64,000 bases of DNA from an uncultured Pelagibacteraceae bacterium (GTDB taxonomy: Bacteria > Pseudomonadota > Alphaproteobacteria > Pelagibacterales > Pelagibacteraceae), in the NCBI GenBank assembly GCA_902552345.1, contig CACDGO010000002.1, positions 79,501-143,500 on the forward strand. The letters run 5' to 3'. The position numbers and the translations under genes are program-made. Positions 22,727 through 27,545 of the stretch are shown one piece after another (the first letter of the stretch is position 1; each line of letters begins with the position of its first letter). The notes beneath the pieces were generated by a model, which did not search any database, had not been told where the DNA came from, and saw only the letters and a program-made list of their open reading frames with translations.

Positions 22727-24178
22727 ATGAAATCAAAAACTGTCTTCGTTTCAATTTTATTTATTTTTATTTCAATTAAAAGTGCGTCTGCAAATTTTTT
22801 TAAAAATATTACAGATTTAATAGATAACAACTACGAAAGTCTTAGATATGGTATTTCTGTAGCTGATGTTGATAATGACGGCACTTATGAATTTATAGTA
22901 GCTGGTTTTGGAAGTGAAAATTTAGCATTATCATACAAAAATAATAAACTAATAAATATTGTAAATGATACTAAGTTCACAGATAAAAGAAGTTTTACTA
23001 TTGGTGTAGCTGCTTGCGATATTGACTCTGATGGGTATGAAGAGATTTATTTTTTAAATACTGATACTTACAGTGGTGAAAAGAAATATTCCGACCGATT
23101 AATAGATATAAAAAATAAGAAATTTTTTGATATTTTTGAACAAAAGAAGAATCAAATAGATTTAAACTTTACAGCTGGTCGTTCCGTTGTTTGCGTAGAT
23201 AGAAACGGAAATGGAAAATATGGTATTTATGTTGCTAATTATGGTGGTCCAACAAGATTTTATGAAAAGTTTAAGGGAAGAATAAAAGATAGGGCAGCAG
23301 AGTTCGGCTTAGATAAAATAACTGGGGGAAGAGCAGTCGTTGCTGGACATATATTATCAAACAATATTGATATTTTCGCAGCCAATGAAAGAGGTGTAAA
23401 CTTTTTGTATAAAAACGTTGATGGTACTTTTTACGATGTAGCATCAGGGTACAATGTTTTAGACCCTTATGAAAATGGAAGAGGTACTGCGTTAAGTGAT
23501 ATTTTGTACAGAGGTCAATTAGATATTATTAGTGGAAATTGGGATGGAGAACATCGTATTTTTATAAAAGAAGAAAACTCTTTTAAAGACATTGCTGATA
23601 GTAATTTTAAAAGGCCATCTAAAATTCGAACAGTTATCTCAGCTGATTTTGATAATGATGGATATGATGAAATATTTCTTAATAATATCGGCGAAGCAAA
23701 TAAATTATTCAAAATTAAGGAAAATGGAAAATTAAAGGAAATTGATATCACTTCTAACTCTGAAGCAAATGGTCTTGGAACTGGTGCTGCTGTAGCAGAC
23801 ATTGATAAAGACGGAATTTTAGAATTATTAATTGCCCATGGAGAAACAGGAAATCAAATACTTACACTTTACAAAGCAAACGTAAAAAAAGATAAGAATT
23901 ATTTAAGAATAAAAGCTTTGAATAAAAATGGAGCTCCAGCTAGAGGAGCAACAGTAACGCTTAAATCCAATTTAAGAAAGCATTCTAAAACAATAGACTC
24001 TGGATCAGGATATTTATGCCAAATGGAACCTGTTGCCCATTATGGAATTAGAAATGATGAAAAAGACTTTGAAGTACAAATTAAATGGACAAACGGAAAA
24101 ACAAATAATTATAAAATAAAAGAAACAGGGAAGACTTATATTTTCAAACAAAGCAAAATGACTATCTCGCCATCCTAA
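22727..24178 (+). CDS. Secreted FG-GAP/VCBS repeat protein with ASPIC/UnbV domain (CRTAC1-like)
   Basis: A 483-residue exported protein with a signal peptide (KTVFVSILFIFISIKSASA, cleavage likely after Ala22). Several calcium-binding-like beta-propeller repeats follow: DVDNDGTYEF, DIDSDGYEEI, DFDNDGYDEIF and DIDKDGILEL. The last 90 residues match the ASPIC/UnbV domain, with NGAPARGATVTLKS, the conserved GSGYLCQMEPVAHYGI and QIKWTNGKTN. Such proteins are found outside the cytoplasm and are thought to bind or contact other molecules; no enzyme activity is established. The 3' end overlaps a convergent Cys-rich secreted gene by 17 bases. Confidence 0.9.
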   Translation: MKSKTVFVSILFIFISIKSASANFFKNITDLIDNNYESLRYGISVADVDNDGTYEFIVAGFGSENLALSYKNNKLINIVNDTKFTDKRSFTIGVAACDIDSDGYEEIYFLNTDTYSGEKKYSDRLIDIKNKKFFDIFEQKKNQIDLNFTAGRSVVCVDRNGNGKYGIYVANYGGPTRFYEKFKGRIKDRAAEFGLDKITGGRAVVAGHILSNNIDIFAANERGVNFLYKNVDGTFYDVASGYNVLDPYENGRGTALSDILYRGQLDIISGNWDGEHRIFIKEENSFKDIADSNFKRPSKIRTVISADFDNDGYDEIFLNNIGEANKLFKIKENGKLKEIDITSNSEANGLGTGAAVADIDKDGILELLIAHGETGNQILTLYKANVKKDKNYLRIKALNKNGAPARGATVTLKSNLRKHSKTIDSGSGYLCQMEPVAHYGIRNDEKDFEVQIKWTNGKTNNYKIKETGKTYIFKQSKMTISPS

Positions 24179-24860
24179 TAAAAATATCACCCATTCCAAT
24201 ATTCATTTCTTCTAGTGGAATATCATTTTTAAAAGCACAGAATCTACCTGTTATTTCATTGGCGTCTATCTTTTTAATATCAGCTTTTTGACATTTTTTG
24301 GCTTCATAGAAAAGACCTATTACAAGTTTACCGTCGACTACGAATACTTCATCATCATTTAGTCTTTGGTTTTTACAAAAATAGTTTCTATTTACTTCCT
24401 CAGGAAAATCTTTTTTTGAACATGGATTATTAATTAATAAAACATCAATTTTTTTAGAACCGTCTTTAAATTTGTGTTTTATCTTTTTAACTTTTGTATA
24501 ATTCATGAGATCACAAGAACAAGGCCAACAACATCTATAAAGTTCGCCGCAAATATTCTTTTGTGTTCTTAGTTCTTTAACATAAATATAATCAGGTTTT
24601 TCTCCCGGATTGATTAATGAACCTGAAACAGGACAATAAAATTTATTATATTCTTTAAACTCATCGTAAGTTAAGTCTTGGTCAATTAAATATTTAAAAA
24701 ATCTTGGACCTGCAGCATTCCTATTGTTGTCTGGAAATATTTTAGACCAGTTTTTAACTAGGTTTTCGTAATAAAATTTTTTTTGTTGAAAGTTTACTTC
24801 TGCAGTAGTTGATGAGGAGTGAATTAATATTAAAAATAATACTTTACAAAAAAATTTCAT
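24162..24860 (-). CDS. Secreted cysteine-rich protein of unknown function
   Basis: A 232-residue protein with a signal peptide (KFFCKVLFLILIHSSSTTA). The mature part contains about twelve cysteines, including the striking block GELYRCCWPCSCDLMNY in the middle and YCPVSGS before it, with later INNPCSK, NYFCKN, AKKCQK and GRFCAF. The pattern suggests a disulfide-rich or metal-binding exported protein. I cannot name its family; the CCWPCSCD block looks like a conserved signature. It shares its 3' end with the UnbV protein gene, but in opposite direction, so co-function is not implied by operon structure. Confidence 0.75.
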   Translation of the reverse strand: MKFFCKVLFLILIHSSSTTAEVNFQQKKFYYENLVKNWSKIFPDNNRNAAGPRFFKYLIDQDLTYDEFKEYNKFYCPVSGSLINPGEKPDYIYVKELRTQKNICGELYRCCWPCSCDLMNYTKVKKIKHKFKDGSKKIDVLLINNPCSKKDFPEEVNRNYFCKNQRLNDDEVFVVDGKLVIGLFYEAKKCQKADIKKIDANEITGRFCAFKNDIPLEEMNIGMGDIFIRMAR

Positions 24861-24918
24861 TAATAAAGCTTAAACATTTTAAAGTTATTTTCACTGCGGT
24901 GTTATTACTTAGCTGATA

Positions 24919-25068
24919 TTAATTTTTTCTTCTAATTTTTTTAATTTCACAATCTTTACATTTTATCGTTTCAGTTGAACCGCCAGGTCCAAAACTATAA
25001 TTAATATCGATTTTTTCATATCTATGAATACCGACTTTGCAAAGCAACAAATACAACCATCTAATCAT
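24919..25068 (-). CDS. 49-residue protein with Cys-His and Cys-x2-Cys motifs
   Basis: A small reading frame on the minus strand. The N-terminal helix WLYLLLCKVGIHRY is followed by a central GPGGST and the pair CKDC, then a Lys/Arg tail. The arrangement Cys10...His15 with Cys37-x2-Cys40 is like the short zinc-binding DUF1660-type proteins (Cys-x4-His plus CxxC). It ends 58 bases after the start of the convergent-free stretch behind the Cys-rich secreted gene and is divergent from the 18-residue peptide gene 49 bases away. The evidence is the residue pattern alone, so the call is moderate. Confidence 0.5.
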   Translation of the reverse strand: MIRWLYLLLCKVGIHRYEKIDINYSFGPGGSTETIKCKDCEIKKIRRKN

Positions 25069-25117
25069 ATTTATAACAAATTTGTACTATAACATTTTTT
25101 TTAGAGGAGGTAATTAT

Positions 25118-25174
25118 ATGCCGTGGATTGAAATAATAGTTGCTTTATTAATTCTTGGAGCAATAGCAGAATAA
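25118..25174 (+). CDS. 18-residue membrane peptide gene with strong ribosome binding site
   Basis: MPWIEIIVALLILGAIAE is encoded between 25118 and the stop at 25172-25174. GAGGAGG (25104-25110) lies 7 bases before the ATG, one of the best ribosome binding sites in the window where most genes lack one. The peptide is one hydrophobic stretch with acidic ends. A short AT palindrome (ATAATTT, five bases, AAATTAT) follows the stop. No family is known to me. In the remaining bases of 24861-25199 I see only the divergent 49-residue gene and AT-rich spacer. Confidence 0.5.
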   Translation: MPWIEIIVALLILGAIAE

Positions 25175-25199
25175 GCAGAAAATAATTTTTTGCAAATTA

Positions 25200-27545
25200 T
25201 CACTTTGAGTTTTTGGAAATAACTTTACCAGATCTAAAGTTTATATATCCAAAGACTACAAGTAAGATCATCGCAAACGGGTAGACAATAGTTTTGCTGG
25301 GTCTATTAGTGTTTTCTATTTTAAAATTACTTATAATATCCCCCATTTGTACTCCTGACTTTTTGGCCTCTCCTCTCCAATTTAACTTGTCAACAATTAG
25401 TTTATTGTTTTGATCAGATAAAGTGATTCCATAGTCCTCAAGGTTATACTCGTTTTGAAATTTTCCTTTCTCGATCACAAATAATTTGTATCTTTCACCA
25501 TATTCCGTGACTCTTGTAACTTTTATATGCACCTCTTTTAAAGGATCAAAAGATAGTTTTTGGATACTTTTAGATGAGAGATTTTGGTTGTTAAACTTTG
25601 GGTAAAATTTACTCAGAACATAATCAGGAGCAAGAAATGAAAGAGAAATAATTAAAAAAGCTATAACTTCATACCACCTCAACTTATTAATGAACCATTG
25701 TTGAGTGGCAGATGTGAAAACTAATATTCCGATTAATGATGTAATGATTACTATCAAGGCTTGCCAGATACTGTTTATCCCAATCAATAGTAGCTCGTGA
25801 TTAAACAAAAAGACAATTGGTAAAATTCCTGTTCTCAAACTATACCAAATAGCTTGGAGTCCTGTTCTTAAAGGGTCGCCACCAGAAATTGCAGCAGCTG
25901 CATATGAAGCTAAACCAACTGGAGGTGTTACGTCTGCCATTAAACCAAAATAAAATACAAATAAGTGAACTGCGATTAATGGAAATATAAATCCTGAAGC
26001 ATTACCAACATCAACTAGAACTGTAGCCATTAAAGATGCTACAACCACATAGTTTGCAGTTGTAGGAAGGCCCATTCCAAGAAGCAAACAAAGAATAATT
26101 GTTAACAATATTAAAATTATCACATTATCTCTTGCTATTGTTTCAATGACTATAATTAAATTTGTACTCAAACCTGTTGACCCTACTGCTCCTACAATTA
26201 TTCCTGCTGTAGCGATTGCAATTCCTACTCCCACCATATTTATCGCACCTTTTTGAAGACCTACGATTGTTTGATTATACCAATCAATCAAGCCTGTTTT
26301 TAAATTTGGATTTTTAATTATACGACTAATCAAATTTACTAATATTAAAGATAAAGTTGCATAAAAGATAGAGAATCCAGCAGTGTATCGCATGTAAACA
26401 AGTAAAAATATTAATACGAAAATAGGAATAAGAAAATGTAACCCAGATAAAAAAGTTTTCTTTAAATGAGGAACATCAGCATCATCCATTCCTTTTAGAC
26501 CTAACTTAAGCGCCTCTAAATGAGAGATATAAAATAAAGCAATATATGAGATGATAGCAGGTAAAAAAGCGTGTTTAACAACTTCAAAATAAGTAACACC
26601 AATAAAGCTTGCCATAACAAATGCAGCCGCACCCATAACCGGTGGCATTATCTGCCCGTTGACTGAAGAAGATACTTCAATAGCTCCGGCTTTCTCTTGA
26701 GAAAAACCAGTTTTTTTCATAATAGGGATTGTGAAGGTTCCTGTTGTTACAGTGTTTGCAATTGATGAACCTGAGATCATTCCAGTCATTCCAGATCCTA
26801 ATATTGCAGCTTTAGCTGGACCACCTCGCATTTTTCCAACCATTGCAAAAGCTAAGTCTAAAAAATATTTTCCTCCACCAGCGGTTTCTAATAAAGCTCC
26901 AAATAGTACGAATAAAAATATGAAATCAACTGAAACTCCTATTGGAATTCCAAATATTGCTTCTTGATCAAACCATTGGAATCCTACTAATCTTTTTACA
27001 GAAAGTCCTCCGTGAGAAATAATGTCAGGAGCATATTTTCCAAAATAAGAAAATAAAAGAAAACAAACTGCTATTATTACTAAAGGCAAGCCTATAGCTC
27101 GTCTAGTCGCTTCTAATAAAATTAATATACCTGTTGCACCAATTATCAGTTCAACTGGTACTTTAAAACCGAATATTTCTTTTACTAAAAGTATTCCACC
27201 TCTATTTACTAAATCGTCATAGAAAAAATAAATATATAAACAGCTTAATGCCCCAGTAATACTAATAATAATATCAATTGCTGAAATCCTTTTTCCCCTA
27301 ACTGCTGGAAAAATTAAAAATGCTAAAGTTAGAGCAAAACCTAAATGAATGGCTCTAGCTGGTAAACCTTTGAACATTCCAAAGTTGAACCAAAAAGGAA
27401 ATGGGGAAGCATACCAGAGTTGAAAAAAAGTCCAAAGTATCGCAATTCCAAAAACTATCTTTAAATGGACTCCAGATAAATTTCTTGTTGGTGAAATATC
27501 TTCTTGGATTTTATTTTTTATCTTACTTTGAATGTTTTGATTCAT
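25200..27545 (-). CDS. TRAP transporter fused permease, TAXI type, with DUF3394 tail
   Basis: A 781-residue membrane protein that fuses the small (DctQ-like) and large (DctM-like) subunits of a TAXI TRAP transporter, a sodium- or proton-driven uptake system. About 18 hydrophobic segments are seen; GSGMTGMISGSSIANTVTTGTFTIP and the second-half MGLPTTANYVVVASLMATVLV are DctM signatures. After about residue 635 a non-membrane domain of about 110 residues (DUF3394, PDZ-like, with KSGVQMGDIISNF) is present, then one last helix. It follows the binding-protein gene after 77 bases that include a strong hairpin terminator, so it is probably expressed less. Confidence 0.93.
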   Translation of the reverse strand: MNQNIQSKIKNKIQEDISPTRNLSGVHLKIVFGIAILWTFFQLWYASPFPFWFNFGMFKGLPARAIHLGFALTLAFLIFPAVRGKRISAIDIIISITGALSCLYIYFFYDDLVNRGGILLVKEIFGFKVPVELIIGATGILILLEATRRAIGLPLVIIAVCFLLFSYFGKYAPDIISHGGLSVKRLVGFQWFDQEAIFGIPIGVSVDFIFLFVLFGALLETAGGGKYFLDLAFAMVGKMRGGPAKAAILGSGMTGMISGSSIANTVTTGTFTIPIMKKTGFSQEKAGAIEVSSSVNGQIMPPVMGAAAFVMASFIGVTYFEVVKHAFLPAIISYIALFYISHLEALKLGLKGMDDADVPHLKKTFLSGLHFLIPIFVLIFLLVYMRYTAGFSIFYATLSLILVNLISRIIKNPNLKTGLIDWYNQTIVGLQKGAINMVGVGIAIATAGIIVGAVGSTGLSTNLIIVIETIARDNVIILILLTIILCLLLGMGLPTTANYVVVASLMATVLVDVGNASGFIFPLIAVHLFVFYFGLMADVTPPVGLASYAAAAISGGDPLRTGLQAIWYSLRTGILPIVFLFNHELLLIGINSIWQALIVIITSLIGILVFTSATQQWFINKLRWYEVIAFLIISLSFLAPDYVLSKFYPKFNNQNLSSKSIQKLSFDPLKEVHIKVTRVTEYGERYKLFVIEKGKFQNEYNLEDYGITLSDQNNKLIVDKLNWRGEAKKSGVQMGDIISNFKIENTNRPSKTIVYPFAMILLVVFGYINFRSGKVISKNSK

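Follow-up and report, generated by a model that had tools for sequence, protein, structure and literature searches.

Two small and apparently unannotated genes lie back to back in the window, the whole stretch of 64,000 nucleotides analysed here, and have a short divergent control region in common (Table 1). The minus-strand gene, orf49, encodes a Cys/His protein of 49 residues, and the plus-strand gene encodes an 18-residue hydrophobic peptide. Comparison with relatives showed that both the tiny frame and orf49 are under selection at the protein level there. The best explanation as a whole, which also gives functions to the two products, is held tentatively.

The original prediction had described two reading frames with starts 49 bases apart in a 339-base gap, and this layout was borne out: the gap extends from 24861 to 25199, and no other gene is apparent in it. 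The GAGGAGG ribosome-binding site is likewise in place, followed by seven bases and then ATG. The predicted Cys-x4-His plus CxxC pattern of the 49-residue frame corresponds to C10-x4-H15 and C37-x2-C40. The minus-strand genes upstream of orf49 code for a solute-binding protein of the TAXI type and for a TRAP fused permease that contains DUF3394. The 232-residue Cys-rich protein on the other side, which has a CCWPC motif, is possibly secreted; it had no Pfam match up to E = 1 and no convincing PHROG or NCBIfam match, and a relative was present in 7 of 10 loci whose gene order was compared. An Rfam scan of the window yielded tRNA families only.

Table 1. Positions of the divergent pair and its surroundings in the window
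Feature	Positions	Strand	Remarks
orf49, predicted CHCC zinc-binding small protein, 49 residues	24919..25068	-	open frames, pN/pS, invariant Cys/His, AlphaFold2 model
Gene of the 18-residue single-span hydrophobic peptide MPWIEIIVALLILGAIAE	25118..25174	+	same-place ORF in 46 of 71 loci, pN/pS
GAGGAGG ribosome-binding site of the 18-residue gene	25104..25110	+	7 bases before ATG
Start-to-start spacer	25069..25117	.	44-50 bases in 46 relatives; presumed regulatory region for both genes
Palindrome ACAAATTTGT	25076..25085	.	present here, in none of 46 relatives; probably incidental
232-residue Cys-rich protein, neighbour outside the pair	24162..24860	-	downstream of orf49
TRAP transporter fused permease (DctM + DUF3394)	25200..27545	-	upstream of orf49, convergent with the 18-residue gene

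Conservation of orf49 was followed in 71 loci from named SAR11 genomes, recorded as Pelagibacteraceae or SAR11 and for the most part from uncultured single cells. The frame was open for 49 or 50 residues in all of them. Because the loci were picked by similarity, broken copies may be under-sampled, and because the loci are phylogenetically correlated, their counts do not represent independent events. Where the tiny gene is present, orf49 had a pN/pS ratio of 0.18, as against 1.43 and 1.12 in the shifted frames of the same loci; where it is absent, the ratio was 0.15. The open frames together with these ratios refute the reading of orf49 as a chance ORF. When the organism's own genome and 100 relatives were searched, 28 of the 101 contained a full or nearly full-length match without a stop, and one more (G024) gave a poor partial match. 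A profile search matched 80 of 397 genomes of the family, several of the lowest-ranked matches being partial or interrupted by stops. The orf49 protein of the window is 96% identical to its closest relative. An alignment of 25 SAR11 sequences, that of the window included, showed no variation at C10, H15, C37 or C40; in a wider set of 13, H15, C37 and C40 are invariant, and C10 is present in all but one truncated reading. Beyond SAR11, 4 of 384 further genomes sampled from the class gave a match at E ≤ 1e-4, and no tiny gene was noted beside these matches.

Two orf49 relatives, not the window protein itself, matched PHROG 14247 over most of their length (residues 1-45 and 1-44; E = 2.7e-05 and 4e-06), and neither had a match in Pfam or NCBIfam. 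PHROG 14247 is a phage family without assigned function. A phage origin of orf49, however, is not supported: two scans of viral contigs gave no relative that tblastn confirmed, and phage records produced weak matches with a best E of 0.5. The tiny-gene pattern fared no better, as it matched two viral contigs, inside a long ORF in one and with no short ORF at the site in the other. The AlphaFold2 model of orf49 consists of a helix (residues 3-12) and three strands (17-23, 32-37 and 43-47), at moderate confidence (pLDDT 72, pTM 0.37). A Foldseek search with this model found nothing at E ≤ 0.001; zinc-ribbon proteins were among its many weaker matches. A PDB sequence search returned nothing significant. 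Since the model is of moderate confidence and Foldseek gave no match at this threshold, it is from the sequence that we infer the zinc site. Downstream of distant orf49 relatives, a protein of about 170 residues was observed in L182, L186 and L188, from a total of five distant loci that lack the tiny gene; the one copy scanned had no Pfam match.

A tiny divergent ORF faces orf49 in 46 of the 71 loci, 44-50 bases from the orf49 start; 44 were detected automatically and two by eye (L123, with a weaker Shine-Dalgarno sequence, and L120). Relatives had been expected to reveal stops or frame-breaking indels if the prediction were wrong. With orf49 open throughout, the tiny frame was intact in 45 of the 46 loci, the sole premature stop being a TGA at codon 4 of L120. 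Most relatives have TGG at this codon, and real decay as well as a sequencing or amplification error could account for the change. The tiny frame had a pN/pS of 0.29 across 31 distinct 18-codon sequences, from which that of the window was excluded. Column shuffles gave a mean of 0.89 and a minimum of 0.44 (200 shuffles, subsamples of 20 sequences), and shifted and reverse frames gave 0.57-1.79. The claim of two genuine divergent small genes is therefore supported, both frames being conserved at the codon level; the description of their products as a Cys/His protein and a membrane peptide holds as far as sequence character goes.

The peptides of this family are hydrophobic and comprise 14-20 residues, typically MSGWEILIVVAILYAIVN; a Glu is present among residues 1-6 in 27 of the 28 that were aligned. 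The window peptide is among the most divergent versions, with 39% identity to the commonest one. Compared with the 96% of orf49, this value indicates that the peptide sequence is only loosely maintained at this locus, and conservation of a specific partner is not assured. A G-rich Shine-Dalgarno sequence followed by GTAAT is retained in almost all of the 24 spacers that were aligned. The distance from orf49 to the upstream gene was 117-284 bases in the loci with the tiny gene, where measured. Of the 25 loci without it, 23 had a gap of 4-10 bases and L161 one of 79, while L171 lies at a contig edge and was left unmeasured. Pfam and NCBIfam gave no match for three peptide queries, although HMMER serves queries of about 20 residues poorly. 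A role as leader of a downstream gene is rejected at the window locus, since the next gene along the strand of the peptide is convergent.

Such an ORF is rare in the genome. We searched 814,147 of the 997,704 genome bases (82%; the window and 40 stretches joined) for ORFs of 12-40 residues with an ATG start, Shine-Dalgarno-like bases, no more than 30% overlap with long ORFs and a hydrophobic share of 60% or above. Three ORFs passed, that of the window at 83% hydrophobic residues and two of 14 residues at 64%. Of 816 long ORFs with mechanically assigned starts, 6 had GGAGG in the 20 bases before the start. On this count, and because the GGAGG-to-ATG pattern had 83 matches versus 88 for the reversed control, the idea that GGAGG starts are a genome-wide habit was rejected.

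We then considered the region between the two starts. The palindrome ACAAATTTGT is present as predicted, but its proposed role as a shared operator is rejected, since none of the 46 related spacers carries it. A sigma70-like promoter in the orf49 direction scored at least 10 of 12 in 22 of the 46 loci, compared to 3% of resampled sequences, and in all 22 its -35-like element overlaps codons 1-3 of the tiny gene. A score of 10 of 12 in this direction was also reached in 6 of the 25 loci without the tiny gene. The window copy scores 8 of 12 to the sigma70 consensus in both directions. In the tiny-gene direction, the scores of the 46 loci did not exceed those of shuffles (8.13 versus 7.99); L184 has a perfect TTGACA-16-TATAAT there. 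Ser2 of the peptide is encoded by TCN in all 39 Ser2-bearing tiny genes at the orf49 site, as against AGY in 11 of 12 elsewhere, and the pair of L183 and L184 uses AGY. This split fits a constraint from the -35 element on the opposite strand, but it may also reflect lineage.

The ribosome-binding site of the tiny gene had a mean predicted unpaired probability of 0.36 in the 46 loci versus 0.43 in resampled flanks, in predictions made without known 5' ends. Values below 0.5 were obtained for 37 of the 46 loci versus 60% of controls, and the window copy was at 0.50. The site is partly paired in the minimum-energy folds of, for example, L130 and L201, and the fold energies of eight RNAs were near those of shuffles (z from -1.67 to +0.51). 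Given the values of 0.36 and 0.43, the site is not predicted to be specially accessible. Exposure of the site does not, accordingly, count against a toxin, since its pairing slightly exceeds that of controls.

The two genes are often linked. A search with the pattern MSGWEI matched 35 of 169 genomes of the genus, and loci were obtained for 30. A divergent orf49 lies alongside in 29 of these, and the thirtieth (L056) is a chance match. The two genes stay together in loci with a different upstream gene (e.g., L157, L158, L128 and L110), and the pair also occurs with other neighbours in two other genera (L183 and L184; the orf49 copy of L184 appears frame-disrupted near its start). In the other five of the seven distant orf49 loci examined in other genera, no MSGxE-like tiny gene was found. 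The genes occur together in 46 of the named loci, and in the other 25 orf49 has no adjoining peptide gene. Because each gene also occurs without the other alongside, the two are often linked without being an obligate pair. In a tree of 68 distinct orf49 proteins, which has few resolved forks, the presence of the tiny gene required four changes versus 20.5 in shuffles. Read by eye, L154-L156 look chimeric, starting like loci without the tiny gene and continuing like loci that have it; recombination across the region of the starts is suggested by this pattern.

Peptide genes were also found at other sites, to which a broader tiny-gene pattern led (31 of 397 family genomes matched). Twelve of them had a pN/pS of 0.44, versus 1.26 and 0.83 in shifted frames. 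In L200, L201, L213, L218 and L221 the peptide gene starts 40-60 bases after tRNA-Ser(GGA), and in L256 and L232 the end or a remnant of a tRNA-Ser lies upstream. The peptide genes of L197, L198, L199, L213, L218, L232, L256, L261 and L265 are convergent with an NlpC/P60-SH3 gene; L200 and L201 have no NlpC gene within the stretch examined. Second tiny ORFs occur in tandem in L138, L143 and L184, and two peptides of the same sequence in L264. In L267 (from G246), several different tiny hydrophobic ORFs follow one NlpC gene in what resembles a small array. Within genus g1, none of nine genomes with a tiny gene opposite orf49 had one within about 1.1 kb after the NlpC gene, and G027, G060 and G150 showed the reverse pattern. 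Ten further g1 genomes had no tiny gene at the NlpC site: G007, G020, G156 and G192, which have orf49, and G006, G021, G034, G187, G189 and G208, which had no orf49 match. In this comparison of sites, which is confounded by relatedness, the filter can miss weak ribosome-binding sites (it missed L261). In genus g5, G222 (92% complete) and G209 (95%) contain the peptide and are not among the orf49 matches at E ≤ 0.01.

A conserved element was observed after the NlpC/P60 gene, often by tRNA-Ser, and 17 of 30 loci had its exact motif. Loci with the exact motif are found at about 65.1 kb of G000:C2, outside the window (L251 and L287), and in L240-L250, L254-L256, L258 and L259; L252 and L253 carry variants. 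The element starts with TATCCACA, which is DnaA-box-like, and continues with GAGTC and CGAATC, both GANTC-type sites, and then with a hairpin GGCAG...CTGCC around GGAGGGAGACTGAA, one stem pair of which is changed on both sides in L259. No Rfam family was detected for the element in L251 or L240. It could be a small RNA without a family, or a site linked to replication or methylation.

Several other explanations of the pair were weighed. The peptide might be a type I toxin of the Ibs or Ldr kind, damaging membranes and silenced by an antisense RNA not yet seen. Ibs and Ldr toxins are tiny, hydrophobic and intergenic, and sometimes occur in tandem. The SAR11 peptide is alike in all these respects (tandem or multiple copies in L138, L143, L184, L264 and L267), its presence is patchy, it is convergent with the neighbouring gene, and its ribosome-binding site is partly paired in predictions. 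The pairing, however, is just slightly above that of controls, the fold energies resemble those of shuffles, and Rfam scans of the window and eight further loci revealed only tRNA families, with no family near the gene and no sign of an antisense RNA. Moreover, Lys and Arg are absent from 45 of the 46 copies opposite orf49, intact or broken, and from 22 of 28 peptides in the wider set, and throughout a genus the gene is under purifying selection at the same position. The toxin reading is weakened by the missing positive charge and by the pattern of selection, and it draws some support from the tandem copies and from the partial pairing of the ribosome-binding site; on balance we consider it unlikely. 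An obligate module of both proteins, such as a protein antitoxin with its toxin or two subunits of one machine, would explain why the pair recurs in three genera in different surroundings. The genomes with a single gene, namely the 25 loci with orf49 and no adjoining peptide and the two g5 genomes with the peptide, have already weakened this proposal, which seems quite improbable to us.

Alternatively, the tiny ORF might be a regulatory device that, by being translated or transcribed, governs orf49 by way of the overlapping promoter, the peptide itself having no role. The position of the -35-like element over its first codons and the TCN preference at the orf49 site are in line with this; yet the element also reaches 10 of 12 in 6 of the 25 loci without the tiny gene, and the codon preference may simply follow lineage. 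As the peptide family is also kept at places without an adjoining orf49 and non-synonymous changes are depleted, we rate such a device as very unlikely. Short helices with an early polar residue are a trait of TatA and TatB, and the peptide could be a stand-alone copy or mimic of their transmembrane segment that modulates Tat protein export. When a profile of 28 peptides was compared with all PDB sequences, two chains appeared up to E = 10, one of them a TatA (9e07_F, residues 5-20, SGWELLLVVGVIVLLF, near the N-terminus), whose SGWELL-like N-terminal helix also has an early acidic residue. The E-value of 3.7 is not significant, and a light-harvesting chain matched better (0.038). In addition, the SAR11 frames end right after the hydrophobic stretch and have neither a hinge nor an amphipathic helix. 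A search of 82% of the genome with a simple pattern gave no TatA of the host with which to compare the peptide. The apparent resemblance is a lead only, and a Tat mimic is a highly unlikely explanation. That one or both frames are chance ORFs might be argued from their shortness and from the divergence of the window's own peptide, but their retention in relatives, the low pN/pS and the rarity of such ORFs in the genome make this exceedingly improbable.

The explanation that we tentatively prefer is that the locus holds two real genes with a divergent control region, one for a single-span membrane peptide acting as an accessory protein or regulator and one for a zinc-binding adaptor. The plus-strand gene would produce a peptide of 14-20 residues, almost purely hydrophobic and with a near-invariant Glu close to its start, which may insert as a single transmembrane helix. 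There it could be an accessory subunit of a complex in the inner membrane, or regulate such a complex, with the acidic residue contacting the partner. The product of orf49, predicted to have a short N-terminal helix, three strands and a Cys/His/Cys/Cys set, may be a small, perhaps membrane-proximal, zinc-binding adaptor. In some relatives the start of the peptide gene lies under the -35-like element of orf49, so that expression of one gene may interfere with that of the other or the two may be co-tuned. Neither gene obtains a function from a match to a family, a fold or the literature: in literature searched mostly outside subscription journals, no paper on them was recognised by title or abstract start, and the available passages of PMC2704228 do not mention this locus.

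KdpF, CydX and AcrZ are small single-span membrane peptides. Like them, the SAR11 peptide would form one short hydrophobic helix and is easily missed by annotation; unlike them, it is shorter, and no operon with a known membrane complex was seen. A broader interpretation, which we regard as doubtful, is that SAR11 bacteria have a new family of transmembrane peptides of 14-20 residues with an M-S-G-x-E-I core, which in genus g1 occupies one of two kinds of intergenic place, facing orf49 or next to tRNA-Ser/NlpC, moves between them in evolution, and controls a membrane process such as protein export or transport. If this were true, few conserved functional genes known might be smaller. Since SAR11 genomes are streamlined, an 18-codon gene kept under protein-level selection likely matters. 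A family of peptides of this kind at defined places would represent a class of genes that standard annotation easily misses, in some of the most abundant bacteria of the ocean, and it offers clear candidates for small-protein proteomics and ribosome profiling.
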